Part shown: positions 5,668 to 25,109 of the stretch, one piece after another
How the letters are laid out: every line of letters starts with the position of its first letter
Position numbering within the stretch: the stretch's first letter is position 1
From: Spirochaetales bacterium
GTDB lineage: Bacteria; Spirochaetota; Spirochaetia; DSM-2461
Length of the DNA: 38,003 nucleotides
NCBI GenBank assembly: GCA_016936115.1
Contig: JAFGPQ010000313.1
Span: 1 to 38,003, forward strand
Direction: 5' to 3'
Position numbers and translations under genes: made by a program
The notes under the pieces: generated by a model
The model's database searches: none
What the model saw: only the letters and a program-made list of their open reading frames with translations
Told to the model about the DNA's origin: nothing

Positions 5668-5722
5668 GTTTTAACGAAAACTCGGGAATTTGCTCTTTTA
5701 GACTTGTTATTTTAACGAAAAT
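5668..5722. promoter_or_regulatory. Two copies of TTTTAACGAAAA upstream of the SBP operon (putative regulator boxes)
   Basis: GTTTTAACGAAAAC at 5668-5681 and ATTTTAACGAAAAT at 5709-5722, 41 bp apart, same orientation. Confidence 0.55.
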
Positions 5723-7991
5723 TCTGAGGTTTTACCGTGGCGCCGGTACAGGGCGGGAGTCTGGCCGGTTCCCTTTTTGAAGGAGGTGAAAAAGGAGTTG
5801 TAGTTGATATAGCCCGCTTTTTCATAGATCTCCTTTACCGGGAAGTCGGTTTCCTGCAGCAGGCGGCAGGCTTCTTTAAGGCGCAGTTCATTGATTCTAT
5901 CGGAAAGGGAAAGGTGGGAGAACTCCCGGTAGATTTTTCTCAAATGGTTGGCGGACAGTCCCGTATGTTCCGAAAGGCTCTGCACGCAGAAGGAAGGATC
6001 CAGGTAGTGCTTATTGAGATCTTCTTCAATCATCCGGTAATTGATGAGAGTCTTCTGGCCTGAGCGGTTTTTTTCATTGAGGATTTCCGTGAAGATGTCC
6101 GAGAAGAACCGGGAGAAGCTGTCCAGAGTTTCCAGGGTCTGCGGGTTGTTTCTCACCTGGATAAGCAGGGGAAGAACGGGGGAATCCTTTTCGTCCTTGA
6201 GAAGGATGATGAAACGGTAGGCGAAGATGCTGATGAACTGCTGGTAATTGGTGAAGGTTCCCCCCTTGAGATAGGAGAGGATCCCGTTGAATTTGATGCC
6301 GCACCGATCCCTGTCACCCTGACGCAGGCAGGAAAAGAAGTTGTCAATGAAACGGGTGGGCAGGATAGGCTCCGACGGTACAGGGGTTTTCTCCCGGTGG
6401 ATTTTGCCGTAGCCAGTAAGGAATTTGTCCCCGATCCGCTCCTCCGCCTCTTTATAAAGCTGGGGCAGATTCAGGGGCTGGTTCCCTTCCCCGTAGGTGC
6501 AGGCGCATCCCAGGCTGAGAGAGAGGGGCTGGGCAGGTTCAGTTTCCTGTGGAGATTTTCCATGCGTTCCCGGGAGTCCTCTTTCCGGGGAACCAGACAT
6601 ACGAGGTTGCGGCCTGTCATATCGATGAGCAGTTCGTTATTTTCATCCAACTCCTTTTTGATCGCCTCGGTGAGATCCTTACGAAGCCGGCGGAAGCGGC
6701 CGCTCTCCATTTTGGCGCAGCCGTCGAAGAAGTCGTCAATCTGAAAAAGGTAAAGATCGAGCCGGCCCTTCAGAAGATCCTGATCGGCGGGGCGCAACTC
6801 GTCAAGCCAGAAGTGGTACTGATGCCCTTCGAGGAGGGAGTGGAATATCTCCACCCGGTAATCGTCGTTCAGATTGTTCAGGGAATCCTCCAGGCCGTCC
6901 TTTTCGGAAAGGAGATGGAGATACTGTTCCTGTATAAGGGAGATCTCGTTATGTCCTCCCACGGGGGGGGTGTCGCTCTTTTCCCCGGAAGAGACGAAAT
7001 GGAGAAGCCGGTTGATAGGCCTGTAGATAAAGCGGGCGCTGAAATAGGAGAAAAGGAAGGCCAGAAGCATGAAGAACAGCATAACCAGGGTGATGGCTTT
7101 GATAACCTGAAAGATCTCCCGGTTGATTTTTTCCAGGGGCATGATATCAATGAAATACCATCCCAGGCGAAAGTTATACTGATAGGTTATGATGCGGCCC
7201 TCTTCGAAAATGACCCCCTGTTCCTTGTCAATCTCCCTGATTTTCCGGTAGATTCGCTCCGTTTCGCCGAGGGGCATATCCCCGTAACGGGTAATGAATT
7301 GTCCGTACTGGTTGTAGACGAAGACCTCGTCCTCCGAATCGGTCAGCCCCCCCGAGAGAAGGGATTTCACCTCGTCCATATCCAGATTGGCGATAATGGC
7401 GCCCTTGAGGTGGGTGTTCTGGGTGGGGGGCGTTCCCAGGAAGAGGGTGAGGGTGGGTTTTTCCACAAATAGTTCCGACTGGTAGGGGGACAGGGTGAAA
7501 CAGGCCGTTCGGGGCCAGTAGTAATCCACGAATCCCCGGTCGAAATTGGTGAGCATGTCCAGGACTTCCTTGTCATAGAAGGTCTCCGCCGGTTCCAGTC
7601 CCGAGGTGGTGGTCAGAAAGAAATTCATCTGCCCATTATAAAGATAGATGGAGTGAATGAGGGGGTAGGAGAGGAGCAGGTCGTCCAGGGCATCCATTCC
7701 CAGCATGATCTGATAGCGGCTCAGATTCCGGGAGTACATGAGGTTGGTGTAGAAGAAGGTGTTGCTGCTGGCTTCCTTGAGTCCCGGGATAAGTTGGGCG
7801 TGGAGATTATCGAAGAGGTAACTGATCTGGTTGATGGACCTCTGATTATTCCGGGCGAAGGCGTCCGTCATTATATGGGTCGTTTCGTTGGTAAAATAAG
7901 CCGTGGAAATAATAATGAGAAAAAGACAGACAAAGGAGAAGATAAGAAAGATGCTGAAAAAGTACCTTTTGGTGTTTTTGCCGCGGCCCAT
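5707..7991 (-). pseudogene. Membrane-bound AraC-family regulator (TM + extracellular sensor + cytoplasmic domain + HTH_AraC), split by an apparent frameshift at a GA/TC repeat
   Basis: ORF 6471..7991 (TM/extracellular sensor, ends ...NLPSPSLSAWDAPAPTGKGTSP*) and ORF 5707..6600 (C-terminal HTH ...YINYNSFFTSFKKGTGQTPALYRR). Removing one TC unit at about 6517-6525 joins them as ...NLPSPSLSLGCACTYGEGNQ..., about 760 aa. Confidence 0.75.
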
Positions 7992-8995: not shown

Positions 8996-9040
8996 TATTC
9001 AGAATTCACAAAAACAGGTTCAATCTCTCTAAATACGGCT

Positions 9041-9058
9041 GATAAAAGCGGGTTTATC
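9041..9058. promoter_or_regulatory. Inverted repeat upstream of the ytfQ-like gene (putative operator)
   Basis: GATAAA-AGCGGG-TTTATC, 33 bp before the start codon. Confidence 0.4.
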
Positions 9059-9091
9059 CTGAATTCATTCACATTTCAGGAGGAATAGATC

Positions 9092-10063
9092 ATGAAAAAG
9101 ATTATTGGTGTTCTTTTGTGTCTCGCCCTGGCAGCTGGCTTCGCCTTTGCCAACGGTTCGTCCGATACGGCGGACAGCGGAAGCGACAAACTGGTGGTGG
9201 GCTTTGCCCAGATAGGACAGGAATCGGGCTGGCGCGATGCGGAGACCGCTTCCCTTCAGTGGTATGCCAGCCGCAACCTGGATACGATCGAACTGCATTT
9301 CGCCGATGCCCAGCAGAAACAGGAGAATCAGATTAAGGCCATTCGCTCATTCATAGATATGGGCGTTGATGTCATCGGACTGGCTCCGGTGGTGGAAACC
9401 GGCTGGGACGCGGTTCTTATGGAAGTGAAAGAAGCGGGTATCCCCGTTATCTTCCTGGACAGGGAAGCCGACGTGGACGACTCTCTTTACTCCACCTTCA
9501 TCGGATCCGACTTTATCCTGGAAGGGCAGAACGCCGCCGTGGAGATGGGCCGCCTGCTGAACGGCAAGGGCAAAATCGTTGAGCTTGAAGGTACCGTGGG
9601 CGCTTCCGTTGCCAACGACAGAAAAGCCGGTTTCGACGATACCATCGCTTCCCAGTTCCCCGGAATCGAAATACTCGGTTCCCAGACCGGCGATTTCAAC
9701 AGAGCCAAGGGTAAGGAAGTCATGGAGTCTTTCCTGAAGACCTACGGTTCGGAAATCAAGGGTGTTTACGGACACAACGACGATATGGTCCTCGGTGCGA
9801 TCGAAGCTATCAAGGAAGCCGGACTCAAGCCGGGCATGGATATCGTAACCGTTTCCATCGACGGGGTCAAAGGCGTTTTCCAGGCCATGGCCGCCGGGGA
9901 AGCCAACGTTACCGTTGAGTGTAACCCCCTCCTGGCTCCCCAGTTCTTTCAGGCCGCCGCAGACCTTAAGGCCGGCAAGACCCTTCCCCGCTGGATCAAA
10001 TCGGACGAGGGCATCTTCCGGGCCGAAACGGCCGCCAAAGACCTTCCCACCAGACAGTATTGA
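9092..10063 (+). CDS. ytfQ: CUT2 sugar ABC transporter substrate-binding protein, YtfQ-like (galactofuranose-type)
   Basis: Signal peptide; GFAQIGQESGWRDAETASLQ, NQIKAIRSFIDMGVDVIGLAPVVETGWD, GHNDDMVLGAIEAIKEAGLKPG; SD AGGAGG. Confidence 0.85.
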   Translation: MKKIIGVLLCLALAAGFAFANGSSDTADSGSDKLVVGFAQIGQESGWRDAETASLQWYASRNLDTIELHFADAQQKQENQIKAIRSFIDMGVDVIGLAPVVETGWDAVLMEVKEAGIPVIFLDREADVDDSLYSTFIGSDFILEGQNAAVEMGRLLNGKGKIVELEGTVGASVANDRKAGFDDTIASQFPGIEILGSQTGDFNRAKGKEVMESFLKTYGSEIKGVYGHNDDMVLGAIEAIKEAGLKPGMDIVTVSIDGVKGVFQAMAAGEANVTVECNPLLAPQFFQAAADLKAGKTLPRWIKSDEGIFRAETAAKDLPTRQY

Positions 10064-10073
10064 CCTTAACCAT

Positions 10074-10096
10074 ACCGGCTCTTCGGGGCCGGTTTT
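10074..10096 (+). terminator. Intercistronic hairpin with UUCG tetraloop after the SBP gene
   Basis: ACCGGCTC-TTCG-GGGCCGGT (8-bp stem incl. one G-U) followed by TTT. Confidence 0.7.
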
Positions 10097-10108
10097 CAGG
10101 AGAGAGCT

Positions 10109-11617
10109 ATGAAATCCGGAATACTTCTGGATATGAAAAACATCTGTAAGGAGTACCCCGGCGTCCAGGCCCTGGACAATGTTCCCTTCCAGCTGGAAGC
10201 CGGGGAAATCCACGCCCTTCTGGGCGAGAACGGGGCGGGCAAATCCACCCTGATCAAGGTTTTGACCGGGGCGGAGTCTCTGACCTCGGGCGCGGTGTTT
10301 CTTAACGGAAAGAGCGTCAGGGTGAAGAACCCCCTGCAGGCCCAGCACATGGGCATCAGCACGGTTTACCAGGAAGTAAACCTGTGCCCCAACCTGTCCG
10401 TATCGGAAAACATCCACATAGGCCGGGAACCCCGGACACGTTACGGACTGATCGACTGGAAGACAATGGAAAGCCGGTCAAGGGAGCTCCTGGCGGGCTT
10501 CGACCTGGATATAGACGTGATCCGGGCTCTGGACAACTACTCCGTGGCGGTGCAGCAAATGGTGGCTATCGCCCGCTCCTGCGACATATCCGCCCGTATT
10601 CTGATACTGGATGAGCCCACCTCCTCCCTGACCGACACGGAGGTGGACAAGCTCTTCTCGGTCATGCGCCGCCTGCGGGACGAGGGCATGGGTATCATCT
10701 TCGTCACCCATTTTCTGGACCAGGTCTACCAGGTCTGCGACAGGATCACCGTTCTCAGGAACGGCCGCTACATCTGCACCGAAAACACTAAGGCCCTGGA
10801 TAAGGTGAGCCTGGTAGGGCGGATGATCGGCAAGGACTACAGCGAACTGTCAGGCAGCCGGACCAGCCGGGAAGAGACCGGCGACAAGGACATTCTCATG
10901 GACGTGAGAGGCCTGTACAAATCGGGTACCATCAGCCCTTTGAATCTGTCCCTGCGGCAGGGAGAGATCCTGGGATTCGGCGGTTTGCTGGGATCGGGGC
11001 GGAGCGAAGCGGCCCGGGTCATCTTCGGAGCAGACCGGCCCGACGGGGGAGACCTGTCCCTGGAAGGGGAACCGGCCCTGTTCAAAACGCCTCTGGAAGG
11101 AATCCGGGCGGGGCTGGCCTTCTGCCCGGAGGAGCGTAAGGTGGAGGGCATCGTGGGGGAACTGTCCATCCGGGACAATATCATGCTGGCCCTGCAGGCT
11201 AAAAAGGGCATGACCAAACCCCTCGATCCGGATGAGGTGGACCGGCTGACGCGAAAGTACATAGAGCTTCTGCAGATCAAGACCCCGGACGAACACCAGA
11301 CGGTGAAGAATCTGAGCGGGGGAAACCAGCAGAAAGTGATCCTGGCCCGCTGGCTGGCCACGGACCCCCGAATCCTGATTCTGGACGAACCCACCCGGGG
11401 TATCGACGTGGGCACCAAGGCGGAGATTCAGAAAATCATGATCAGCCTGGCCGACGGGGGGATGTCGGTTGTCTTCATTTCCTCGGAAATAGATGAAATG
11501 ATGCGCTGCTGCGAGAGAATGGTGGTCCTCAAAGACCGCGCCGTGGTCTGCGAGCTCTCCGGGGAGACGCTGACCGAATCCCGGGTGATGCAGTCCATCG
11601 CGGGAAAGGGAGAATAG
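10109..11617 (+). CDS. ytfR: CUT2 sugar ABC transporter ATP-binding protein (tandem ABC domains), YtfR-like
   Basis: GENGAGKSTLIK Walker A; RILILDEPTSSL and RILILDEPTRGIDVGTKAEI; two ABC modules. Confidence 0.9.
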   Translation: MKSGILLDMKNICKEYPGVQALDNVPFQLEAGEIHALLGENGAGKSTLIKVLTGAESLTSGAVFLNGKSVRVKNPLQAQHMGISTVYQEVNLCPNLSVSENIHIGREPRTRYGLIDWKTMESRSRELLAGFDLDIDVIRALDNYSVAVQQMVAIARSCDISARILILDEPTSSLTDTEVDKLFSVMRRLRDEGMGIIFVTHFLDQVYQVCDRITVLRNGRYICTENTKALDKVSLVGRMIGKDYSELSGSRTSREETGDKDILMDVRGLYKSGTISPLNLSLRQGEILGFGGLLGSGRSEAARVIFGADRPDGGDLSLEGEPALFKTPLEGIRAGLAFCPEERKVEGIVGELSIRDNIMLALQAKKGMTKPLDPDEVDRLTRKYIELLQIKTPDEHQTVKNLSGGNQQKVILARWLATDPRILILDEPTRGIDVGTKAEIQKIMISLADGGMSVVFISSEIDEMMRCCERMVVLKDRAVVCELSGETLTESRVMQSIAGKGE

Positions 11618-11621
11618 AAAA

Positions 11622-12638
11622 ATGGAAATCCTACAGAAATACCGGAGGGCGCGTATCTTCTGGCCTTCGGTTATTTTCCTGGGCATACTGCTCTTCAATA
11701 CGATTATATCAAAGGGAGAATTCCTGAGCATCACCATGATGGACGGCCACTTCTACGGCCGTCTGGTGGATATCTTTCGGAACGGGAGCAAACTGATGCT
11801 GCTGGCCATGGGAATGACCTTCGTCATCGCCTCGGGGGGCATCGACATCTCCGTCGGATCGGTCATGGCTATCTCCGGGGCCATCGCCTGCAGCGTGATA
11901 CGTGGCAATCTGTTTCCCTTTTTTCAGGGAAGCGTCTTCTTCGCCCTGGTTCTAGCCGTCGCGGCGGGAGCCCTGTGCGGCGCCTGGAACGGATTTCTGG
12001 TCTCCCGGGTGAGAATTCAGCCCATGGTGGCCACCCTGATTCTCATGGTGGCGGGACGGGGCATCGCTCAGCTGATAACCAACGGCAAGATCATCACGGT
12101 GAACTCCCCCTCCTACTACTTCATCAACGGGGGGTACATCCTGGGGCTGCCCTTTCCCCTCTATCTGGTGATCATCCTCTTTGCGGGGCTGCTCTTTTTC
12201 ACGAAGAAGACCGCCTTCGGCCTTTTCCTGGCCTCCTCGGGGATCAACGACAAATCAAGCCGCCTCGCGGGCATACGGGTAGAGAACATCAAACTTTTAG
12301 TCTACGTCTTCTGCGGTGCCGCGGCGGCCGGGGCCGGGCTGATCGAAAGCTCCGGCATCAAGGGAGCGGACTGCAACAACGCGGGGCTTATGATCGAGCT
12401 GGACGCGATCCTCTCCGTAGCTATCGGGGGGAATCTCCTGACCGGGGGCCGGTTCTCTTTGGGAGCCAGCATCTGCGGGGCCCTGATCATTCAGAGCATC
12501 ACCACCACCATCTACGCCATGGGCGTTCCGCCGGAGGTCATCCAGCTGGTCAAAGCGCTCCTGGTCATCACCATATCACTCATCCAGTCGGAGAAACTCA
12601 GTATAAAACTTCTTCCGGCGAAGGCGGCAGCCCAATGA
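11622..12638 (+). CDS. ytfT: CUT2 sugar ABC transporter permease, YtfT-like
   Basis: SGGIDISVGSVMAISGAIA, GIRVENIKLLVYVFCGAAAAGAGLIESS; 4 bp after ytfR-like gene. Confidence 0.85.
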   Translation: MEILQKYRRARIFWPSVIFLGILLFNTIISKGEFLSITMMDGHFYGRLVDIFRNGSKLMLLAMGMTFVIASGGIDISVGSVMAISGAIACSVIRGNLFPFFQGSVFFALVLAVAAGALCGAWNGFLVSRVRIQPMVATLILMVAGRGIAQLITNGKIITVNSPSYYFINGGYILGLPFPLYLVIILFAGLLFFTKKTAFGLFLASSGINDKSSRLAGIRVENIKLLVYVFCGAAAAGAGLIESSGIKGADCNNAGLMIELDAILSVAIGGNLLTGGRFSLGASICGALIIQSITTTIYAMGVPPEVIQLVKALLVITISLIQSEKLSIKLLPAKAAAQ

Positions 12639-13630
12639 AGCTCAAACGGACCTTTTCGGAGATCTCCCTCCTGACTATCACCCTGGCTCTGTTCGTCATC
12701 ATGTACGGTGCGGGGGTTCTCTTTTACGGATTCCGGATCTCCACCTTCCTGAATCTCTTCAATGACAACGCCTACCTCATCGTGGCTACCACGGGCATCT
12801 TCTTTGTTCTGCTCACCGGGGGAATCGATATTTCCATCGGCTCGGTGGTGGCCTTCACCTGCGTTTTTTCGGCCTGGCTGTTAGAGAAGGGATTCTCCGC
12901 CGGCTTCGTCATTCCCCTTGTGCTTCTGATCGGCCTGGCCTTCGGGTCGCTACAGGGATTCCTCATCGTCAAATTCGATCTGCAGCCCTTCATCGTGACC
13001 CTGGCGGGACTCTTTTTCATGCGGGCCCTCTGCTCGGTCATCAGCAAGGCGGCCATTGCCATAAAGAATCCCTTCTACCTGAAGGTGGCTCTGGCTAAAA
13101 TCCGCTTCACCCTGGGACGGCAGCATCCCAAGATCTACTTCTACGCCCTCTTCGCCGTGGCAGTGGTTCTGGGGACAGCTTTTATCCTCAAGTTCACCAA
13201 GTTCGGCCGCACGGTCTACGCGGTGGGGGGATCGGAACAGTCCGCCTCCCTTATGGGACTCCCGGTCAAACGGACCCGGGTCATGGTGTACGGTCTCTCC
13301 GGCTTCTGCGCCTCCCTGGGCGGAGTGATCTACAGCCTGTACACTCTGGCGGGATACTCCCTGCAGAACGTGGGCATGGAACTGGACGCCATCTCATCGG
13401 CGGTCATCGGGGGAACCCTGCTTACGGGAGGTGTGGGATCCATCTTCGGCGCGGCTATCGGTGTATTGATACAGGGGCTTATCCAGACGGTGGTCACCTA
13501 TCAGAATCTGAACACCTGGTGGACCAAGGTTACCGTGGCGGCTCTTCTGTGTCTTTTCATCATCATACAGCGGGCCATGTCGGTGAACGGGGAAAAGGCG
13601 AGAAAAAACCGGCTCATCAAGGCGGCATAA
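12635..13630 (+). CDS. yjfF: CUT2 sugar ABC transporter permease, YjfF-like
   Basis: Start refined to MKLKRTFSEI (ATGA overlap with previous gene); TGGIDISIGSVVAFTCVFSAW; 331 aa. Confidence 0.85.
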   Translation: MKLKRTFSEISLLTITLALFVIMYGAGVLFYGFRISTFLNLFNDNAYLIVATTGIFFVLLTGGIDISIGSVVAFTCVFSAWLLEKGFSAGFVIPLVLLIGLAFGSLQGFLIVKFDLQPFIVTLAGLFFMRALCSVISKAAIAIKNPFYLKVALAKIRFTLGRQHPKIYFYALFAVAVVLGTAFILKFTKFGRTVYAVGGSEQSASLMGLPVKRTRVMVYGLSGFCASLGGVIYSLYTLAGYSLQNVGMELDAISSAVIGGTLLTGGVGSIFGAAIGVLIQGLIQTVVTYQNLNTWWTKVTVAALLCLFIIIQRAMSVNGEKARKNRLIKAA

Positions 13631-13650
13631 GCGTGTTACAATAGGGGAAT

Positions 13651-15420
13651 ATGACAAGGCTGTTTCGGCGGTTTCTGAATCAGAAACTGAGGACAAAATT
13701 ACTGCTCTCTTTCATCGTGGCGGCGATCATCCCCCTGGCCGTCTACACCCTGGCGGCCAGCTCCTACTATCTGAAGCAGGCCGGGGAGTCGGCCCGAACC
13801 TATACCAGGCAGCTGACTTCCCAGGTAAGCAGCAGCATTCGTATTTACATGGGGGCCATAGAAAACCTGGCCTCCTATATGGCCCGGAAGGAGGAGGTCC
13901 GCGCCTTCCTGGCGAACGGGGATTTCCCTCCCGAAGAGGAGGAGATGATCCACCGGGACTTCGCCAGCCTTTTGGTCTCCCAGCCGGAAATCGCGGGCCT
14001 GCTCCTGATCGGTCCGGACGACCGTTGGATCTCTGCGGGGATCTCCCGTGTCAGCCGGGACAGCGTGGTCCTTGAGGAGTGGTTCGTCCGGGCCCGAACA
14101 GAGAATCAGGACAGTTTTATCTACAGCACCGCCGTGGGGCGGGAAGTCTTTCAGAACGACTCCTCCAGCGGGGACGATCTGTTTTTTCTCGTTCAGACTG
14201 TCCGTGACGGGGAGGGCCGCTTTCTGGGTGTGCTGCTATTGGATATCGCCCATTCCGTCATAGAGCAGGCCATTGAGAATATCTCCATCCTGGAAAAGGG
14301 GTTCCTCTTTGTCTACGATCAGGCGTCGCGCATTGTCTACGCCCCGGTGAATCCCGTGGTTTACCGGGTCAATCCCCGGTGGTTCACCGGGGCGGAGGAT
14401 TCGATCCGGGTTAACGTGCTGGATGAAACCTATCAGATCGAAAGCCTGCCCGTGGGAAATCCGGACTGGAAGGCGGTGGGTGTCTTTTCTGTGGACGAGA
14501 TCCAGGGGAAGCTGATTCGCACCTATTACATGGTCATTCTCCTGAGCCTGGCCATCCTTCTTTTTCTGTACGTGCTTTTCCATTTTCTCACCAAGACCCT
14601 GGTCCATCCCCTCATCGATCTGAAATCACTCATGAGCCGTGCGGCGGAAGGGGATTTCTCCATCACCTTTCAGAGGCAGTACGCCGACGAAGTGGGGGAA
14701 CTGGGGGAGAACTTCAACTTCATGATCGGAGAGATCAACAATCTTATTCAAATGGTCTACAAGGAGCAGCACGACAAACAGGAGGCCCAGCTCAAATCCC
14801 TGCAGGAGCAGATCAAGCCCCATTTCCTCTACAACACCCTGGACACGATCAACTGGATGGCCCGGGATTACGGGGCCGACGACATCGTCAAGCTCATCGA
14901 TGCGCTCACTACTATGTTTCGGGTGGGCCTGAGCCACGGTAAGGATATCATCTCCCTGGGGGAGGAGCTTTCACACGCCTCCAACTATCTTTACATCCAG
15001 GGCATACGCTACCGTGAGAAGATCGATTACAAAATCGACGTGGATAACCAGCTGCACCACTACCTGATCCCCAAGCTGATTCTGCAGCCCCTGATAGAAA
15101 ACGCGATCTACCATGGATTGAAAACGAGGGAGGGAAAGGGGCTGATTGCCATCGCCGGGGAAACCCGGGGTAAGAACCTTATCCTCTCCGTCACCGATAA
15201 CGGCAGCGGCATGGACGGGGAAACCCTGGCCCGGCTGAATCGTACCCTGACCGAGGATGCCCCCCGGGAGAGCTTCGGCCTGTTCTATGTGAACGACCGG
15301 ATCCGCCTCTACTGCGGCAGGGATTACGGGTTGTCCCTGATGAGCGAGCCCTGCGTGGAAACGAAGGTGATCCTTCACCTTCCCCTGATTTACAAAAGAG
15401 AGGACTTTAAAAATGTATAG
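13651..15420 (+). CDS. Sensor histidine kinase, YesM-like (extracellular sensor region, HAMP, His_kinase family)
   Basis: N-terminal TM, second TM, HAMP-like region, LKSLQEQIKPHFLYNTLDTINWMA (phosphoacceptor), VTDNGSGMD (N/G box). Confidence 0.92.
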   Translation: MTRLFRRFLNQKLRTKLLLSFIVAAIIPLAVYTLAASSYYLKQAGESARTYTRQLTSQVSSSIRIYMGAIENLASYMARKEEVRAFLANGDFPPEEEEMIHRDFASLLVSQPEIAGLLLIGPDDRWISAGISRVSRDSVVLEEWFVRARTENQDSFIYSTAVGREVFQNDSSSGDDLFFLVQTVRDGEGRFLGVLLLDIAHSVIEQAIENISILEKGFLFVYDQASRIVYAPVNPVVYRVNPRWFTGAEDSIRVNVLDETYQIESLPVGNPDWKAVGVFSVDEIQGKLIRTYYMVILLSLAILLFLYVLFHFLTKTLVHPLIDLKSLMSRAAEGDFSITFQRQYADEVGELGENFNFMIGEINNLIQMVYKEQHDKQEAQLKSLQEQIKPHFLYNTLDTINWMARDYGADDIVKLIDALTTMFRVGLSHGKDIISLGEELSHASNYLYIQGIRYREKIDYKIDVDNQLHHYLIPKLILQPLIENAIYHGLKTREGKGLIAIAGETRGKNLILSVTDNGSGMDGETLARLNRTLTEDAPRESFGLFYVNDRIRLYCGRDYGLSLMSEPCVETKVILHLPLIYKREDFKNV

Positions 15421-16588
15421 TGTCATGGTAGCCGACGATGAGGAAATCATCAGAAACGGTCTCTCCCGTTTTCTCCGCTCCGACGAATCGATAGAACTGG
15501 CGGGGAGTGCGGAGAACGGACTGGATGCTTTTGAGAAAGCGGCGGCTCTTCTGCCGGACATTATTTTCGTTGATATCAACATGCCCTACATGAACGGGCT
15601 GGAACTGATCGAAAATCTCGCCTCCCTGGAGAAGGAGATTCTTGTGATCGTGGTGACGGGCTATTCCGATTTCGTCTATGCCCAGAAGGCTCTGCGCCTG
15701 GGAGTCTTCGACTATTTTCTCAAACCCATCATGGAAGAGCCCTTCTTCGCCCTTCTGGATCGGGCTAAATCCTTTGTCGATGAACAGCGGAGCCTTAACA
15801 ATATACAGGAACAGCTGAGGGATACCCTGGAGTACGCCGTGGAACGCTGCCTGAATCAGCTGGCCCTGAATCTCATAGTCGAGGGGGACTGCGCCTCCCG
15901 GCTTGGATTCCTGGAAAAGCAGCGGGCCTTCCCCGCCGATCTTCTGGTAATATCCCGGCGCAAGGACCTGCCCGGGGAAGAGGGGGAGGGGCGCTTCTCT
16001 GAAAATTCGGAGATCCCCTTTGAGATAAAAAGGCTGGCCGACCGTATCCTCACCGGGGAGAGGATCGTACCGGGCTTCGTCAATCAGGCGGGGCACGTGG
16101 TGTATCTCCTGCCCGCCGGTGAGGAAAATCCCGCCGGACGGATTCAGGCCGAGGTGCCCCTTCCCGTGGATATCGACACAAGGCGGGTCGGAGGAGTGGC
16201 CGATCTCTGCCGCCGTTACCGGGAGCTGATGGAGGGGATCCGCCGGGAAACCCGCTACTCCCCCCAGGTCAGGAGCGCCGTGGATTTTGTGAAGGAGAAC
16301 TATGCCGATCCGGGCCTCTCCCTTTCCATGCTCAGCGAGAGCGCCCATGTGAGCCCGGGCCACCTGGGAAGGCTCTTTCGGCAGGAACTCTACCGTTCCC
16401 CCATGGATTTTCTCAACGGATACCGGATCGAGCGGTCCATGGAGATGCTCACCCGGGAGAACTGGAAGATTTATGAGATCGCCGAAAAGACCGGCTTTAC
16501 CAGCCAGCACTACTTCAGTAACGCCTTCAAAAAAACCGTGGGCCAGTCACCTCTGGCCTACCGGAAGATGAGGGAGGAGAGATGTTGA
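15413..16588 (+). CDS. Response regulator with AraC-type HTH (YesN-like)
   Basis: MYSVMVADDEEIIRNGL...IIFVDINMPYMNGLEL receiver; C-terminal EIAEKTGFTSQHYFSNAFKKTVGQSPLAYRK; ATGTATAG overlap with kinase gene. Confidence 0.92.
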   Translation: MYSVMVADDEEIIRNGLSRFLRSDESIELAGSAENGLDAFEKAAALLPDIIFVDINMPYMNGLELIENLASLEKEILVIVVTGYSDFVYAQKALRLGVFDYFLKPIMEEPFFALLDRAKSFVDEQRSLNNIQEQLRDTLEYAVERCLNQLALNLIVEGDCASRLGFLEKQRAFPADLLVISRRKDLPGEEGEGRFSENSEIPFEIKRLADRILTGERIVPGFVNQAGHVVYLLPAGEENPAGRIQAEVPLPVDIDTRRVGGVADLCRRYRELMEGIRRETRYSPQVRSAVDFVKENYADPGLSLSMLSESAHVSPGHLGRLFRQELYRSPMDFLNGYRIERSMEMLTRENWKIYEIAEKTGFTSQHYFSNAFKKTVGQSPLAYRKMREERC

Positions 16589-18420
16589 GAAAGGGACTCC
16601 TGCCGGCTATGGCCCTGCTGTTACTCCTGGCGTCCTGCCGGGTCAGTCCTCCTGAGAAAATCGACTACGTCATCGGGGTTTCCAACTCCAGCATGCTCGA
16701 AGAGTGGCGCATCCAGTTGAACCGGGAGCTCAAGGAGGAGGCGGACCGCTATCCCTTCCTTTCGGTCATCTTCACCGATGCCGCCTCCCGTTCGGACAAG
16801 CAGATACGGGATATCGAAAAACTGATGGGCTACGGCATCGACCTGCTCATCATTTCTCCCTGCGACGTGGAGAGAATGACCCCCATTATCAGCGCCATTT
16901 ACGAAACGATTCCCGTGATAATCCTGGACCGGGTGGTGGACGGTTATGACTACACCCTCTTTATCGGCCCGGATAATGACAACATCGGACGCCTGGGCGC
17001 GCTGGCCCTTCATCGGTTGCTGGGTGAGGAGGGGGGCCGTGTCCTGGAGATCTCCGGCCCCATGGACCAGCTCTCCTCGCGCAGCCGCAGCCGGGGACTG
17101 CATCGGGAAGTGGAGGAGAGCTACCCCTCCATCGTCATGAAGGATCCCCTTATCGTCAGTCCCCAGAACCGGGACCGGGCGGAGGATCTGCTGTTGGAGG
17201 AACCTGGCCGGCTGGAGGGGATCGACGCGATCTACACCCATACGGACGGGCTGGCCCTAGGGGTTTCCCGGGCTCTGGAAAAGCTGGACCGTGCAGACAT
17301 TCCCATCGTGGGAACGGACAATCCCTCCGGGGAGAACGGGGGATTTGATTTAGTGGACCGGGGGCTTATCCACAGCACGGTGGAGAGCAGCACCGGGGGA
17401 CGGGAGGCGGTGCGCTACGCCCTGGATATTCTGAACCGCCGCACCGGGGTTCCCAAGCAGATCATCCTGCGCAGCCGCATTGTCACCCGGGATAACCGCA
17501 GCAACTACACCCCGATGCCGGTGGGGGGCGGAGCGGAAGACGGCATTACCCTGGGGTACGCCCAGGTGGGGACGGAGAGCCAGTGGCGGGTAAGCAATAC
17601 CAAATCCATCATCCAGGCGGCCAAGGATTTCGACATCGACCTGATCTACCGGGACGCGGACCAGAATCAGGAGGCCCAGATAGGGTATCTGCGGGAGTTC
17701 ATAGAGAAGAAGGTGGATGCGATTCTCCTCTCCCCCATCGTGGAAGAGGGTTACGAGGAGGTTCTGGGAGAAGCGAAGGAGGCGGGAATTCCCGTGCTTC
17801 TGTCGGACCGGAAAATCGATTCCCCCGACGAGGAGCTCTATATGACCTTTATCGGGGGGGATTTCAAGGAGGAGGGACGCCGGGCGGCCCGCTGGATAAG
17901 CCGGCAGTATCCGGGACAGTCCGTCCGGATTCTGGAGCTCTGGGGAACCAACGGGGCTACCCCCACCGAAGAGAGGCACGAGGGTTTCGCTGAAATCATC
18001 GACGGGATCGCCGCCTACGATATCGTCTATGCGGGAACGGGTAACTTTACTCGGGACGGGGGTTATGCCATCGTATCCGACTACCTGGAAACCCATGCCC
18101 CTCCCATGGTGGATGTGATCTTCGCCCACAACGATGACATGATCCTGGGGGCCATCGACGCGATTCGGGAGCGGGGCCTCAAGCCCGGTGTTGATATCAA
18201 GCTGATTTCGGTGGACGGGACCAGGGCGGCCCTTAACGCCCTGAAGAAGGGAGATATGAATTTCGTGGTGGAGTGCACCCCCTTGCTGGGTGACCAGGTG
18301 ATGAAGGCCGTCCTCGATCTGATGCAGGGAAAGGATCTGCCCATGAGAATCGTTACCGATGAGAGAACCTTCGAGGCGGATCAGGTTGACGACGGATTTA
18401 TCCGGAGGCGGAGTTATTGA
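16582..18420 (+). CDS. Lipoprotein with two tandem type-I periplasmic sugar-binding domains
   Basis: Signal peptide with lipobox LLLLLASC; domain 1 YVIGVSNSSMLEEWRIQLNRELKEEA...; domain 2 ITLGYAQVGTESQWRVSNTKSI...FAHNDDMILGAIDAIRERGLKPGVDIKLISVDG, closely resembling the YtfQ-like SBP upstream; 7-nt overlap with RR gene. Confidence 0.9.
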   Translation: MLRKGLLPAMALLLLLASCRVSPPEKIDYVIGVSNSSMLEEWRIQLNRELKEEADRYPFLSVIFTDAASRSDKQIRDIEKLMGYGIDLLIISPCDVERMTPIISAIYETIPVIILDRVVDGYDYTLFIGPDNDNIGRLGALALHRLLGEEGGRVLEISGPMDQLSSRSRSRGLHREVEESYPSIVMKDPLIVSPQNRDRAEDLLLEEPGRLEGIDAIYTHTDGLALGVSRALEKLDRADIPIVGTDNPSGENGGFDLVDRGLIHSTVESSTGGREAVRYALDILNRRTGVPKQIILRSRIVTRDNRSNYTPMPVGGGAEDGITLGYAQVGTESQWRVSNTKSIIQAAKDFDIDLIYRDADQNQEAQIGYLREFIEKKVDAILLSPIVEEGYEEVLGEAKEAGIPVLLSDRKIDSPDEELYMTFIGGDFKEEGRRAARWISRQYPGQSVRILELWGTNGATPTEERHEGFAEIIDGIAAYDIVYAGTGNFTRDGGYAIVSDYLETHAPPMVDVIFAHNDDMILGAIDAIRERGLKPGVDIKLISVDGTRAALNALKKGDMNFVVECTPLLGDQVMKAVLDLMQGKDLPMRIVTDERTFEADQVDDGFIRRRSY

Positions 18421-19421
18421 TTCTGGCGGAGTGTGGTATCGCGCTGGACGATATCCGGGGTGATGAGAATTTTCCGTGGTTCCGTATCTGTTCCGTTTAT
18501 AGCATAATCCATCAGGTCAAGGGCGGCATGGGCGACGCTGGATATTTTCATATCAACAGAACTCAGCCTGTTGCTGACAGCCATGATTGTATTGTCGTGG
18601 CTGAGAATGGCGATCTCATCGGGAACCCGGTAACCGAAGTGGCGGACGGCATATAGGGCGCCGACGCCCATGATGTCGTTGCAAGTAAAAATCGCGGATG
18701 GCTTTTTTCCTGTGGCCAGGATCCTCGATACGGCTTCGTAGGTAAGCTCAATTCCCTTCTCCACGTTAACATCGGCCAGAGTAAGTACATCGTCCTCTTC
18801 GGGCGTAATTCCCCTGTCGCATAATTCTTCCTTCCAGACTTTTTCCTTAAGATCAAAGGAATAACCGGTATTTCCCCTGATGAAGAGTTGCTTCGTGTAG
18901 CCTCCATCGAGCAGATATCGGGCCGCTCTCCTCATACCGGCGGCCTGATCGACCATGACCGAATTCATCCCGTAAAAATCTTCATAGGAATGGACTAACA
19001 CCAGCGGAATCCTCTGAGACAGGGTGGAAAGAAAATCAGGCTCGAATTCCTTGACGGAGAGATCGTGGAGTATAATCCCTTCCACGCCTCTGGAAAGAAG
19101 GTCGGAGATGCATTTGTACTGGGAATCATAGCGGTCGCTGCGGTTCAAATAAACGATGGTTCCTTCCGCTTCGCACCTGTCAATGGCTGTCTCCGCAAAT
19201 TCCATTGCGTAATAATTCGTTACACTTTGCGTTACAATGGCAAAGGCTTTCTGTTGCGTGCCAAGAGTCCTTTTTGTCAAATCATCGGGCATATGGTTTA
19301 ATTTTCTTATGGCTTCTTCTACCTTTTCACGGGTTTCCTTTCTTACGGGCCCATTATTCAACACCCGGGAGACGGTAGCGGTTGATACACCTGAAGCTTT
19401 TGCTATTTCATTTACAGTCAT
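18414..19421 (-). CDS. LacI family transcriptional regulator
   Basis: MTVNEIAKASGVSTATVSRVLNNGPVRKETREKVEEAIRKLNHMPDDLTKR HTH + sugar-binding C-domain. Confidence 0.95.
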   Translation of the reverse strand: MTVNEIAKASGVSTATVSRVLNNGPVRKETREKVEEAIRKLNHMPDDLTKRTLGTQQKAFAIVTQSVTNYYAMEFAETAIDRCEAEGTIVYLNRSDRYDSQYKCISDLLSRGVEGIILHDLSVKEFEPDFLSTLSQRIPLVLVHSYEDFYGMNSVMVDQAAGMRRAARYLLDGGYTKQLFIRGNTGYSFDLKEKVWKEELCDRGITPEEDDVLTLADVNVEKGIELTYEAVSRILATGKKPSAIFTCNDIMGVGALYAVRHFGYRVPDEIAILSHDNTIMAVSNRLSSVDMKISSVAHAALDLMDYAINGTDTEPRKILITPDIVQRDTTLRQNQ

Positions 19422-19429
19422 GAAAATAC

Positions 19430-19459
19430 TCTCAATAAGTCTATAATCGTTCTCAATAA
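19430..19459 (-). repeat. Two TCTCAATAA direct repeats at 21-bp spacing just upstream of the lacI-type start
   Basis: TCTCAATAA at 19430-19438 and 19451-19459. Confidence 0.5.
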
Positions 19460-19510
19460 TTTGTCTACTCTCATATTATCGTAATATATGGAATATCTGT
19501 CAAGAAGAGA

Positions 19511-19567
19511 ATGTAATAAAATCCAATATATATGTAAAACGTTACAAAAATTATGTAAATTCATACA
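19511..19567 (+). promoter_or_regulatory. Operator-like array: three ATGTAA boxes at exact 21-bp period
   Basis: ATGTAA at 19511, 19532, 19553; middle site TGTAA-AACG-TTACA is a perfect inverted repeat, third TGTAA-ATTC-ATACA is nearly so. Confidence 0.65.
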
Positions 19568-19575
19568 ATATTTGC

Positions 19576-19605
19576 TTTACAAATCTGAGAATCTGCTCTT
19601 ATACT
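19576..19605 (+). promoter_or_regulatory. Sigma70-type promoter of the alpha-galactoside operon
   Basis: TTTACA - 18 bp - TATACT, upstream of the start at 19628. Confidence 0.55.
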
Positions 19606-19627
19606 GATAAAGAAAATGGAGATATTT

Positions 19628-20527
19628 ATGAGAGAAACCCCGAATAAGCGCAAAAGAAAAAGTCTGGATAAACAGGGGGCGGGAGCTTTATTGTTTCTGC
19701 TTCCCAGTCTTATCGGTTTTGCCGCTTTTTTCATCGTTCCCGCCCTGCGGGGGATTTTTCTGAGTCTTACCGATTGGGATCTGCTGGGGAAGCCGGGCTT
19801 TGTGGGGCTGGAGAATTACGGGAAGCTTTTGACCGACGAGGAATTCTGGAACTCCATGCTGGTGACAGTAAAGTATGTTTTCTGGAATATTCCCCTGCAG
19901 ACGGTGCTGGCCCTGGGAATCGCCCTGGTCATGGACCGGGTGACGAAATCCAGTGTCTTCCGGGGGATAATCCTGATACCCTGGCTGCTTCCCAATGTCG
20001 TCGTAGCCCTGTTATGGCTCTGGCTTCTTGATCCGGCTGTCGGCGTTATCAACAGCACGGTTCAGAGCTGGGGAATGAAACCGATAAACTTTCTGACCTC
20101 AACCGAGCTGGCCCTGCCTTCTATCGCCGGCATCAACATCTGGCGCCACATGGGATATACCGCGCTCATTGTTTTTGCCGGGCTTCAGGGTATCCCCCGT
20201 GAGGTGGAAGAGGCCGCCCTGATAGACGGCGCTTCCCCCTGGACGCGATTCATACGGATCATCCTACCCTATCTGCGCCCCGTTCTCGCCTTTGTAATCA
20301 TCACATCGGTCATCGGCTCCTTTCAGATTTACGATACCGTAGCCATCACGACAAGGGGAGGCCCCATCACCGCAACCTACGTCATCTACCTTTTTATTTT
20401 TAAGAACGGTTTTGAAAGCTATCTGATGGGTTATGCCACAGCGGCCTCAATGATCCTGTTTCTCATATTGATGGGAGTCAGCTTTCTTCAGATGAGAATC
20501 ATGAGAGCCAGCGAGAGCGATTTCTAG
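19628..20527 (+). CDS. Sugar ABC transporter permease (MalF-like, CUT1)
   Basis: Start refined to MRETPNKRKRK (GGAG 5-8 nt upstream); EAALIDGASPWTRFIRIILPYLRPVLAF EAA loop. Confidence 0.9.
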   Translation: MRETPNKRKRKSLDKQGAGALLFLLPSLIGFAAFFIVPALRGIFLSLTDWDLLGKPGFVGLENYGKLLTDEEFWNSMLVTVKYVFWNIPLQTVLALGIALVMDRVTKSSVFRGIILIPWLLPNVVVALLWLWLLDPAVGVINSTVQSWGMKPINFLTSTELALPSIAGINIWRHMGYTALIVFAGLQGIPREVEEAALIDGASPWTRFIRIILPYLRPVLAFVIITSVIGSFQIYDTVAITTRGGPITATYVIYLFIFKNGFESYLMGYATAASMILFLILMGVSFLQMRIMRASESDF

Positions 20528-20550
20528 ATAGGGAACATCAGGAGATAATT

Positions 20551-21453
20551 ATGAGTAATTCCAATAGTGCATTGAATAAGAAAACCGGACTGACAAAGGG
20601 AATCCTATGGGCGCTGACAGCGCTCCTTCTCTTCGTGACGCTTTTCCCCTTTTTCTGGGTATTCCGAACGTCTCTGACTCCCAAGAGTCTGATTTTCACA
20701 GAGCCCACGGCCATCATGCCGTCGGTTAGGACGTGGACCCATTACGGCCGCGTTCTGGGATTGATCGACAGAGCAAGGGCCATCGAACTGGGGGGAACGG
20801 GACAATCGGTGAACTTCGGCCTGAACATTCTGAATTCCTTCATCGTTTCCATCGGGGTAACCATCTTTCAGGTCCTCTTTTCTTCAATGGCCGCCTTCGC
20901 CTTCGCCAGATTGAAATTCCGTTTCAGGGAAATGCTGTTCGCGCTTTACGTTTCGACCCTGATGATTCCCAGTATCGTCATGATGCTGCCCAACTTCGTT
21001 TTCGTGAAGGATCTGCACCTGCTGAATACTTATCTTGGCATAATGGCGCCGACTCTGCTTATGACGCCCTTCGCCGTATTCTTCCTCAGGCAGTTCATGC
21101 TGGGAATCAACAGAGAGTTGGAAGAAGCCGCTTTTCTAGACGGCGCCGGGCTGGGGGTTGTGTTCTGGGAGATAATAATCCCCCTATGCGCCAATGCGAT
21201 GATGACTTTAGCTGTCATCACCTTCATTAATACATGGAATGATTACATGTGGCCTTTGATCGTAGGGAAGAAGGAAGAAATCAGAACTCTGACAGTAGCG
21301 CTGGGCATTTTCAGGCTGCAGACTCCCCAGGGACAGCCTGACTGGGGCGGAATGATGGCCGGGGCCACACTCGCCATGGTTCCCACCTTGGGCATTCTTA
21401 TACTTTTCGGAAGGCGAATTGTGAATTCCATTGGGTTTTCCGGCTTCCGCTAG
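20551..21453 (+). CDS. Carbohydrate ABC transporter permease (MalG-like, CUT1)
   Basis: EEAAFLDGAGLGVVFWEIIIPLCANAMMTLAVITFINTWNDYMWPLIV. Confidence 0.92.
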   Translation: MSNSNSALNKKTGLTKGILWALTALLLFVTLFPFFWVFRTSLTPKSLIFTEPTAIMPSVRTWTHYGRVLGLIDRARAIELGGTGQSVNFGLNILNSFIVSIGVTIFQVLFSSMAAFAFARLKFRFREMLFALYVSTLMIPSIVMMLPNFVFVKDLHLLNTYLGIMAPTLLMTPFAVFFLRQFMLGINRELEEAAFLDGAGLGVVFWEIIIPLCANAMMTLAVITFINTWNDYMWPLIVGKKEEIRTLTVALGIFRLQTPQGQPDWGGMMAGATLAMVPTLGILILFGRRIVNSIGFSGFR

Positions 21454-21524
21454 AAAAACCATTTCAATCAGGTCAATTGTCCTCTTTGGGGAGGACTGAT
21501 AATTAAACTTAAAGGAGTTTATAA

Positions 21525-22850
21525 ATGAAGAAACAGATTTTTACCATTCTGTTAGCGGCTTGTCTGGTCCTGACCCTCTGGAGCAATGGAAAGGAAGATA
21601 AGACTTCCGGTCCCGTGACAGTTCAGTACATTCTCTGGGATGCCAATCAGCTGCCCGCCTATGAGAAGTGCGCAGAGGATTTTATGGCTGCCAATCCGGA
21701 CATCACAATCGAAATCACTCAGATGGGCTGGGGCGATTACTGGACCGGGCTTCAGACCGATATGGTCGGCGGTACGGCTGCCGACGTTTTTACGAACCAT
21801 CTGGCCAAGTACCCCGATTTCGCCTCCAAGGGCCAGCTGGTGGATATCGCGCCCATGGTCGCCCGCGACAAGGTGGATACTTCAGTGTACATGAACGGTC
21901 TGGACGGTCTCTGGGCGACAAAGGACGGCAAGCGCTTCGGCCTTCCCAAGGATTGGGACACCATTGCTATCGTTTATAACCAGGAGATGATTAATGCCGC
22001 CGGTTACTCCGCCGCTGAGGCCAACAGTCTGAACTGGAACGCAAAAGACGGCGGAACCTTTGAAAAGTTCATTGCTGCCCTTTCCGTGGATACCAGCGGA
22101 AGAAACGGTCTGGATCCCAATTTCGATTCGGAGAACGTAGCCTGCTACGGTCTTGCTCTGAACCATTTCGACGACCGGGGACAGGCTCAGTTCAGCCCCA
22201 TGGCCGTTAGTAATAACTGGATGTATACGGACGGTCTCTACAACGCCAATTACCACTTTGACGATCCCAAGTTCATCGCCACGATCCAGTGGTTCGTCGA
22301 TATGACCGAAAAGGGCTTCCTGGCTCCCTACGAAATGACCGCAAATAACGCCAACCCCCTCTTCACATCCCGCCAGGCCGCTACCGTCTTCGACGGTTCA
22401 TGGATGATCGGCTATTACTCCAGCAGTTCCGAATTCCCCGTGGGATTCGCAAAGCTGCCCGCCGGACCCGCCGGAGTGAAGAGTATGACAAATGGTCTGG
22501 CCGATTCCATCTGGGTAGGTTCCAAGCATAAGGAGCAGGCCTGGCTGTGGGTCAAATACCTCGCCTCCGCGGAAGCCCAGAATACCGTAGGTACCTTCGG
22601 CGTTGTTTTCCCCGCTATCGAATCGGGAGTAAAGAATGCTCTGGCCGCCTATGATGCGAAAGGGCTTGATGTTTCCGCCTTTACAGAAGAAGCCACTAAC
22701 CCCGGCGAAACCTTTGTATACCCCATTGTTGACAACGGCGTGAAAATCAGCGAGATTATGACTCAGACTTTCGATAGTATTTTCCTGGGTGTGACAGATG
22801 CCGAATCTTCCCTTAAGGAAGCGAACAAGAAGATACTGGATCTTTTCTAA
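21525..22850 (+). CDS. Extracellular solute-binding protein family 1 (CUT1 sugar SBP)
   Basis: Signal peptide MKKQIFTILLAACLVLTLWSNGKED; SBP_bac_1 style; operonic with permeases. Confidence 0.92.
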   Translation: MKKQIFTILLAACLVLTLWSNGKEDKTSGPVTVQYILWDANQLPAYEKCAEDFMAANPDITIEITQMGWGDYWTGLQTDMVGGTAADVFTNHLAKYPDFASKGQLVDIAPMVARDKVDTSVYMNGLDGLWATKDGKRFGLPKDWDTIAIVYNQEMINAAGYSAAEANSLNWNAKDGGTFEKFIAALSVDTSGRNGLDPNFDSENVACYGLALNHFDDRGQAQFSPMAVSNNWMYTDGLYNANYHFDDPKFIATIQWFVDMTEKGFLAPYEMTANNANPLFTSRQAATVFDGSWMIGYYSSSSEFPVGFAKLPAGPAGVKSMTNGLADSIWVGSKHKEQAWLWVKYLASAEAQNTVGTFGVVFPAIESGVKNALAAYDAKGLDVSAFTEEATNPGETFVYPIVDNGVKISEIMTQTFDSIFLGVTDAESSLKEANKKILDLF

Positions 22851-22872
22851 GAATTAATTAACAGAGTTTTTG

Positions 22873-22904
22873 GGACCAGCCTTGACGGGCTGGTCCGATT
22901 TTTT
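22873..22904 (+). terminator. Rho-independent-type hairpin between SBP and alpha-galactosidase genes
   Basis: GGACCAGCC-TTGACG-GGCTGGTCC (9-bp perfect stem) followed by GATTTTTT. Confidence 0.8.
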
Positions 22905-22922
22905 CTCTACCAAGGAGTTCCC

Positions 22923-25109
22923 ATGAGCATTGAATACATAGATTCCCAAAAGCTTTTCCACCTGAAAACCCCTTCGTCCAGCTACTTTATCCGTCTTGAG
23001 AAGGGAAAGCACCCTGTGCACCTCGGATGGCACGGCGCCATAAAAAACTGGGGCGGGAGCAATGACATTCAATGCTTCGACAGGGCCTTCTCGCCTAATC
23101 CCCGGACGGAGGAGCGCTCCTTTTCTCTGGATAACATTCCCCTGGAGTACAGTGCCTGGGGACGGACGGACCTTCGCACTCCCTCCCTGCAGGTGGAGGG
23201 AGCGGACGGCAGCATGTCCCTGGATCTGGAGTATCGGGAGCACTCCATCCTTCCGGGGAAGCCTTTACTGGATGGGCTCCCCTCGGTTTATCTGGAGGAT
23301 GACAGCGAGGCGGATACCCTTGTTCTGACCCTGGAAGATCCCCTGACCGGTCTGCTTTGCGACCTTTCCTATACGGTATTCGCGGAACGGGACGTCATTA
23401 CCAGAAGCGTCCGCCTGCGAAACGGCGGCAAAGAGGAGCTGACGGTCAAGCGGATTATGAGCCTCTCCCTGGATCTTGAGGATTCGGACTACACCCTGGT
23501 GCAGCTTTCCGGCGCCCACAACAGGGAGCGCCGTATCCACAGGCGGCCCCTGGCCTCGGGCATGCAGTCCGTAGAGAGCCGCCGCGGCACGAGCAGCCAT
23601 CAGCAGAATCCCTTTATTGCCCTCATGAAGGGGGATGCAGGGGAGGATCAGGGAATCGTTTACGGCTTCAGTCTGGTTTACAGCGGCAATTTCCTGGCTG
23701 CGGTGGACGTGGATCAGTTCGATTCCCCCCGGGTGATTATGGGTATCAACCCATTCGATTTCGCCTGGCGCCTTGAGCCGGGCAGCGAGTTCCAGACGCC
23801 CGAAGCGGTTATGGTGAGAAGCGGTAAAGGGCTGGGGGCAATGTCCCGCACCTACCATGATCTCTATCGCTCCCGCCTCTGCCGGGGCGCTTACCGGGAC
23901 AGGGAAAGGCCCGTTCTCATCAACAACTGGGAAGCCACCTACTTCGATTTCGACTCGAATACCATCCTGAACCTGGCCGACGAGGCGAGTCGCCTGGGCA
24001 TTGAGCTCTTCGTTCTGGACGACGGCTGGTTCGGGGAACGGGACAATGACCTCACCTCACTGGGCGACTGGTTCCCTCATAAGAAGAAACTACCCGGCGG
24101 CATAAGGTCCCTGGCGGAGGGCATTCTGGAAAAGGGTATGTCCTTCGGTATCTGGGTGGAGCCAGAAATGATTTCCGAGAAGAGCCGCCTTTACGAAGCC
24201 CATCCCGACTGGTGTATTCGGGTTAAACGGCGAAATCTTTCCACCGGCCGGTCCCAATTGGTTCTGGACTATTCCCGCAGGGATGTGCGTGACTACATAG
24301 TGGGGATCCTCTCAGACATCCTCCGTGACAATCCCGTCTCCTATGTGAAATGGGATATGAACCGCCACTTGACCGAAGTGGGCTCCGCCCTTCTGCCGGC
24401 GGAACGGCAGCGGGAAACGTCCCACCGCTTCGTTCTGGGTGTATACGACGTTTTGGAGCGCATTACTTCCGCCTTCCCGGAAGTGCTCTTCGAGAGCTGT
24501 TCCGGCGGAGGCGGGCGGTTTGATCCGGGCATGCTCTACTACATGCCCCAGACCTGGACCAGCGACAATACGGACGCCATATCAAGACTTTCCATACAGG
24601 CGGGAACCTCCCTGGTCTATCCCCCCCTGACTATGGGGGCCCATGTGTCGGCGGTACCCAATCACCAGACGGGACGCACGGTCTCCCTCAAGACCCGGGG
24701 CGCCGTTGCCATGGGGGCCAATTTCGGCTATGAGCTGAATCTCCTGAACCTGTCAGCCGATGAGAAGGATCAGATCAAGGAGCAGGTGGCGGAGTATAAA
24801 AAAAGGCGTCACCTGATCCTGGACGGTTCCCATTACCGCCTGATCGAACCGTGGAAGCAAACGGACCGTTACGCCTGGATGACCGTTTCCCCCGACAGGA
24901 GGGAAGCCCTGGCCGTCTTCGTATCGGTCCATACAGAGTCGAACCACCCCTACGGTTCCCTGAAGCTGAAAGGATTGGACAGGGATATGTCCTATTCTAT
25001 CAACGGGGAGGGATCCTACGGAGGGGACGAACTGATGGAATCGGGAATCAGGCTGCCCTATCCTCTTTTCGAAGCGGATGCCCATGAGTTTCACATCCGG
25101 GCGCTTTGA
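22923..25109 (+). CDS. Alpha-galactosidase, GH36 family
   Basis: 728 aa; FVLDDGWFGERDNDLTSLGDW, YVKWDMNRHLTEVGS, FESCSGGGGRFDPGML, TWTSDNTDAI. Confidence 0.95.
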   Translation: MSIEYIDSQKLFHLKTPSSSYFIRLEKGKHPVHLGWHGAIKNWGGSNDIQCFDRAFSPNPRTEERSFSLDNIPLEYSAWGRTDLRTPSLQVEGADGSMSLDLEYREHSILPGKPLLDGLPSVYLEDDSEADTLVLTLEDPLTGLLCDLSYTVFAERDVITRSVRLRNGGKEELTVKRIMSLSLDLEDSDYTLVQLSGAHNRERRIHRRPLASGMQSVESRRGTSSHQQNPFIALMKGDAGEDQGIVYGFSLVYSGNFLAAVDVDQFDSPRVIMGINPFDFAWRLEPGSEFQTPEAVMVRSGKGLGAMSRTYHDLYRSRLCRGAYRDRERPVLINNWEATYFDFDSNTILNLADEASRLGIELFVLDDGWFGERDNDLTSLGDWFPHKKKLPGGIRSLAEGILEKGMSFGIWVEPEMISEKSRLYEAHPDWCIRVKRRNLSTGRSQLVLDYSRRDVRDYIVGILSDILRDNPVSYVKWDMNRHLTEVGSALLPAERQRETSHRFVLGVYDVLERITSAFPEVLFESCSGGGGRFDPGMLYYMPQTWTSDNTDAISRLSIQAGTSLVYPPLTMGAHVSAVPNHQTGRTVSLKTRGAVAMGANFGYELNLLNLSADEKDQIKEQVAEYKKRRHLILDGSHYRLIEPWKQTDRYAWMTVSPDRREALAVFVSVHTESNHPYGSLKLKGLDRDMSYSINGEGSYGGDELMESGIRLPYPLFEADAHEFHIRAL

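Follow-up and report, generated by a model that had tools for sequence, protein, structure and literature searches.

A tandem-SBP lipoprotein encoded with a YesM/YesN pair and a furanose-type ABC transporter: a putative three-component sugar-sensing system of a Spirochaetales bacterium

Introduction

Does a lipoprotein with two fused SBP domains, encoded at the end of a furanose-type transporter operon, act as the receptor of the sensor kinase encoded beside it, and if so, which of its halves reads the sugar and which meets the kinase? Three-component systems composed of an SBP, a kinase and a regulator are already established. The kinase ectodomain of CuaDSR is bound by a dedicated SBP but not by the transport SBP (PMC10384115). 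The XylFII-LytS-YesN system senses xylose for a CUT2-type sugar transporter, as cited in PMC10384115 and PMC13068155, and SBP genes lie beside YesM-YesN genes in Parageobacillus (PMC13068155). Worked examples of SBP-kinase pairs are few, and the reading of the sugar is hard to part from the docking to the kinase in a single-domain SBP. The tandem lipoprotein described here is encoded in the window, namely the whole stretch of 38,003 nucleotides that was analysed, which is a contig (C87) of a 3.9 Mb genome in 368 contigs.

Results

The seven forward-strand genes at 9092-18420 comprise those of an ABC transporter of furanose type (YtfQ/GafA), followed by genes for a YesM-type kinase, a YesN-type regulator and a tandem-SBP lipoprotein. 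Their features are as follows:

8996-9091, +: ytfQ leader, candidate target of the regulator, 88.5% identity to L009
9092-10063, +: ytfQ/gafA-like transport SBP; Peripla_BP_4 (Pfam), best NCBIfam model YtfQ, under the equivalog cutoff
10109-11617, +: ytfR-like ABC ATPase; two ABC_tran (Pfam), best NCBIfam model YtfR
11622-12638, +: ytfT-like permease; BPD_transp_2 (Pfam), best NCBIfam model YtfT
12635-13630, +: yjfF-like permease; BPD_transp_2 (Pfam), best NCBIfam model YjfF
13651-15420, +: YesM-type sensor kinase; dCache_1, HAMP, His_kinase and HATPase_c (Pfam)
15413-16588, +: YesN-type response regulator (REC and AraC HTH); Response_reg and HTH_18 (Pfam)
16582-18420, +: tandem-SBP lipoprotein of 612 aa, the putative receptor; two Peripla_BP_4 stretches (Pfam)
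16666-17505, +: N half of the putative receptor, kinase-partner SBP lineage; best solved sequence match 2x7x, and tree placement
17533-18417, +: C half of the putative receptor, GafA-like; top matches the furanose SBPs 6hbd, 6hbm, 5ocp and 2vk2

In NCBIfam, the transporter genes are nearest to YtfQ, YtfR, YtfT and YjfF, with scores under the equivalog cutoffs. The transport SBP has a signal peptide, lacks a lipobox and carries the pocket WRDRFRNDE. The ytfQ and ytfR genes are separated by 45 nt; from ytfR onward, the coordinates agree with the gaps given in the initial annotation, which are +4 nt (ytfR-ytfT), -4 nt (ytfT-yjfF, where yjfF starts at an ATGA) and +20 nt (yjfF-kinase). The last three open reading frames are likewise present on the forward strand as that annotation had them, together with the two overlaps it had reported, of 8 nt (ATGTATAG) between kinase and regulator and of 7 nt (ATGTTGA) between regulator and lipoprotein. 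Identical 8- and 7-nt overlaps are found in the nearest relative, a Spirochaetaceae MAG of the same genus (L009). Since the overlaps repeat there and the gene set repeats across phyla and gene orders, the arrangement is not due to chance.

The kinase combines His_kinase and HATPase_c with HAMP, and alignment revealed a HisKA-type H-box (QIKPHFLYNTLD), while the regulator joins REC to an AraC-type HTH, the composition of a YesM/YesN pair. The dCache ectodomain of the kinase spans residues ~36-294, and its AlphaFold2 model (pLDDT 83) has dCache chemoreceptors as fold matches.

Two further regulatory loci are present in the window. A LacI-type regulator gene (18414-19421, -) is convergent with the lipoprotein gene, overlapping it by 7 nt. 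On its other side, a CUT1 ABC operon that includes a GH36 alpha-galactosidase is transcribed divergently (18414-25109). At 5707-7991 (-), adjoining a CUT1-type ABC operon, the frames of an AraC-type protein (297 aa) and of a membrane protein (506 aa) overlap, possibly a single membrane-bound AraC-type regulator split by a frameshift.

Tandem receptors were gathered from GTDB genomes and from three groups, in which 5/395 genomes of Spirochaetota (where further ones were found with an N-half profile), 5/397 of the family of Mobilisporobacter and 15/106 of that of Paenibacillus aceris had them. One more is on a short contig that bears the label Anaerolineaceae (L010). A same-strand kinase accompanies the tandem-SBP gene in 39 of the 40 loci with enough flank (Spirochaetota, Clostridia and Paenibacillaceae), either directly next to it or separated by the regulator alone; these loci are kin to each other rather than independent, so the linkage is argued from its recurrence across phyla and gene orders. 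Left out of the 40 were L010 and L014, which begin at contig ends, and L012, where a regulator fragment alone is visible. The exception, L015/L090, shows an apparent deletion fusing ytfT to a regulator fragment. At L015:8046-9914, and equally in L090, a single 622-aa ORF consists of ytfT and the C-terminal part of the regulator, and yjfF and the kinase are absent, as if deleted or mis-assembled. By contrast, a dCache YesM-type kinase was found at none of the 26 single-domain YtfQ control loci (497 kb), which gave one weak regulator-type match. A conserved association with kinase/regulator neighbours, which the initial annotation had proposed as a check, is borne out by this comparison.

At least three gene orders occur: ytfQRT-yjfF-HK-RR-receptor in the window and most Paenibacillaceae, RR-ytfQRT-yjfF-HK-receptor in several Clostridia, and HK-RR-receptor-ytfQRT-yjfF in a second Spirochaetia lineage. 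Kinase and receptor are never parted, even where the regulator gene has been relocated, and the genomic pattern strongly suggests a receptor-kinase partnership. In two tandem receptors (L160:4588-6327 and L161:1741-3489), adjoined by the usual kinase and regulator, the N half is normal and the C half has diverged strongly, possibly for a different ligand. N-type single SBPs are also encoded at four Spirochaetia loci (L162, L163, L164 and L165). Their neighbours are ytfR/ytfT-like genes, a gene for a product of 440-460 aa that weakly resembles a receiver and one for a product of 520-640 aa that matches an ABC ATPase in part.

The AlphaFold2 model of the tandem lipoprotein comprises two SBP folds (pLDDT 87, pTM 0.81), preceded by a lipobox, LASC, that ends at residue 19. 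In many relatives, above all those of the Paenibacillaceae, the lipobox is replaced by a hydrophobic N-terminal stretch resembling a membrane anchor, and membrane tethering may therefore be a trait common to tandem receptors. The N half (residues 30-306) has the fructose-binding sensor domain of BT1754 (2x7x) as its best solved sequence match, and the C half matches, in both sequence and fold, SBPs solved with galactofuranose or arabinofuranose (6hbd, 6hbm, 5ocp and 2vk2).

Domain trees unite the N halves in one clade (SH-aLRT 97), whose neighbours are Paenibacillaceae single-domain SBPs with genes immediately behind HK-RR, and place the C halves beside the transport YtfQ clade yet outside it. 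The putative sensing SBP and the transport SBP of the same operon thus belong to separate clades. The whole tandem protein scores 285 bits against the NCBIfam YtfQ equivalog, whose cutoff is 510. The simplest history compatible with these trees would be an old fusion between a kinase-partner SBP and a GafA-like SBP. A recent duplication of the operon's own ytfQ was considered and rejected, as the C halves lie apart from the YtfQ of the operon that encodes them.

The same genome encodes a counterpart with one SBP domain. On contig C248 (L178:4369-12851), a GafA-like single lipoprotein, a kinase and a regulator are followed by ytfQRT-yjfF, and the domain search gave no dCache match for this kinase. 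In 30/30 Spirochaetia loci, these being the loci fetched with full-length kinase relatives, the query's own included, the gene immediately upstream of the non-dCache kinase encodes a single GafA-like SBP. Of the 29 distinct sequences among these receptors, 28 carry the pocket WRDRSRNDE. The dCache kinases pair instead with receptors that contain an N domain, either tandem or, in six Paenibacillaceae loci (L041, L044 and L149-L152), a single N-type SBP without C half beside the same dCache kinase family. By this pairing, the N domain appears to belong with dCache, and we consider the chances evenly balanced that the N half contacts the dCache ectodomain.

A chemoreceptor-like gene (748-2619) is present upstream of the L178 operon. 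The genome has 12 matches to the YesM-type His_kinase family. The eleven besides that of the window were retrieved with their loci, and contig C51 proved to carry another overlapping regulator-kinase-SBP trio (L182:8052-12455, -) with an SBP of 342 aa.

Nine pocket-region positions, a choice partly our own, were picked by conservation in an alignment to the GafA protein MSMEG_1712. The C-half pocket is WRDRFRNDE in 37 of 38 C halves, that of the window included, as in 37 of 40 single YtfQ-type rows. The N halves mostly have WRDRNRND followed by a variable last residue (WRDRNRTDE in the window), and every N half in the comparison has N in place of the F of the furanose pocket. According to PMC10191376, the binding-site residues are identical among GafA proteins, which bind galactofuranose and/or arabinofuranose. 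The C-half pocket points to furanose sensing, of D-galactofuranose and/or L-arabinofuranose, two sugars that pocket residues cannot separate because the identical site serves either or both. The sugar genes nearby, which encode a GH36 alpha-galactosidase (window and L088), a GH43 enzyme (L020) and a GH127 beta-L-arabinofuranosidase (L016), fit this reading loosely.

Among the Paenibacillaceae, 14 of 15 N halves retain the domain but have lost most of its pocket (RQGRNTSD), a decay that counts as one event because the 14 form one clade. Tentatively, and with some doubt, the tandem protein may be read as an adaptor-receptor fusion, in which an old SBP was reused as the docking adaptor for dCache and joined to a GafA-like domain that sets furanose specificity; the N pocket might then have been free to decay, as in the Paenibacillaceae. 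Most N halves outside this family keep WRDRNRND, and the fold match of the N half, 2x7x, binds fructose, both of which speak for a reading of the two halves as working receptors for different ligands, integrating two sugars, with either half touching the kinase. Such integration of two sugars is nevertheless unlikely in view of the pocket lost from so many Paenibacillaceae N domains and of the N-to-T change at one pocket position of the window N half.

Docking through the N half has counter-evidence in covariation. In a mirror-tree analysis with the transporter background removed, distances of the kinase ectodomain covaried with those of the C half at 0.72, of the N half at 0.37 and of YtfQ at -0.13, which is at most suggestive of contact; with rougher alignments and a shortened kinase, the ectodomain had given no signal. 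The cleaned mirror-tree favours the C half and the phylogenetic pairing favours the N half, and the two are in conflict. The C half might accordingly both read the sugar and contact the kinase, leaving the N half as a spacer or modulator, and a lone C-type receptor apparently suffices in the non-dCache systems. We regard this as quite unlikely, however, given the single N-type SBPs that accompany the same dCache kinase family with no C half at all.

Between the window and L009, the ytfQ leader is 88.5% identical, whereas the 300 nt of coding DNA next to it reach 73%. Upstream of ytfQ, nine Paenibacillaceae share a conserved block of ~45 nt amid diverged DNA; its commonest form is TATGACGGAATAAAGCAAAAAATGACTTTTGCGTGTAAAGAC, and it contains ATGAC twice, 20 nt apart. 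From their conservation, these leader blocks are candidate regulator sites. A search for a sigma-70-like promoter before ytfQ found none, and one for direct repeats in the leader gave one weak pair, 59 nt apart.

Discussion

Taken as a whole, the locus probably encodes an SBP-assisted three-component system that senses galacto-/arabinofuranose and is dedicated to its own furanose ABC transporter. As extracytoplasmic receptor, it would have the membrane-tethered tandem lipoprotein, whose GafA-like C half, with its intact pocket, would bind D-galactofuranose and/or L-arabinofuranose, and whose N half, of the kinase-partner lineage, would be the likelier one to meet the dCache ectodomain. Binding would be relayed through the receptor halves to the kinase, which would phosphorylate the YesN-type regulator, and the phosphorylated regulator would activate the ytfQRT-yjfF-kinase-regulator-receptor operon, a direction of signalling and an autoregulation that we infer. 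The model is weakened in that a dCache domain can bind ligands itself, and the LacI-type regulator could act on the operon too.

In amino-acid dCache motifs, an Arg is expected two residues ahead of a WY pair. A reading of the tandem protein as an additional transport SBP, with the kinase sensing directly through dCache and the linkage reflecting co-regulation only, would suit the GafA-like C half and a dCache fold shared with ligand-binding chemoreceptors, but is very improbable, as YtfQ is already present in the operon, kinase and receptor remain adjacent despite moves of the transporter and regulator genes, this Arg is missing from the kinase ectodomain in the alignment, and the CuaDSR ectodomain alone had no affinity for the sugars tried (PMC10384115).

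The proposed receptor-mediated system most resembles CuaDSR of Ruminiclostridium cellulolyticum. Both have a lipoprotein SBP dedicated to sensing, a YesN/AraC-type regulator (PMC10384115, PMC5663094), and a kinase with HAMP and an extracytoplasmic alpha/beta ectodomain, and in either case the linked ABC transporter has an SBP to itself. However, CuaD consists of one SBP, which belongs to a different family and is specific for cellobiose, compared to two fused Peripla_BP_4 domains whose ligand is probably a furanose, and the Cua sensor genes are set apart as a constitutive unit. In Clostridium beijerinckii, XylFII-LytS-YesN likewise unites a sugar SBP, a kinase and a YesN-type regulator, but with a single SBP (cited in PMC10384115 and PMC13068155). 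The LytS chain was absent from the PDB sequence matches of the window kinase and from the 50 fold matches listed for it, and neither kinase type led to the XylFII-LytS complex through PDB sequences or folds.

In C-half fold and the nine compared pocket-region positions, the tandem receptor resembles the GafA/YtfQ furanose SBPs (2vk2, 5ocp, 6hbd and 6hbm; PMC10191376), but those are single-domain transport SBPs, from whose YtfQ clade the C halves are set apart. The BT1754 hybrid two-component system (2x7x; PMC3404733) also has an SBP-fold periplasmic sensor domain, the best match of the N half; there it lies within the kinase polypeptide, whereas here kinase and SBPs are encoded by separate genes (13651-15420 and 16582-18420). 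The single-receptor Gaf system of Spirochaetia (L178 and 29 relatives) shares the GafA-like receptor SBP, the YesM-type kinase and the YesN-type regulator, but has one SBP domain and a kinase without dCache. In the literature searched, whose coverage leaves out most subscription journals, no description was found of a tandem-SBP YesM/YesN receptor, its spread, the decayed N pocket or the paired one-domain system.

One chain here carries an SBP with a conserved pocket and another whose pocket has decayed in one clade, and the same genome has a one-domain counterpart with a different kinase ectodomain, so docking and sensing could be told apart by domain deletions. If the adaptor-receptor fusion holds, a swap of the C half could retarget a dCache kinase to another sugar, and the tandem arrangement suggests a modular design for furanose biosensors.
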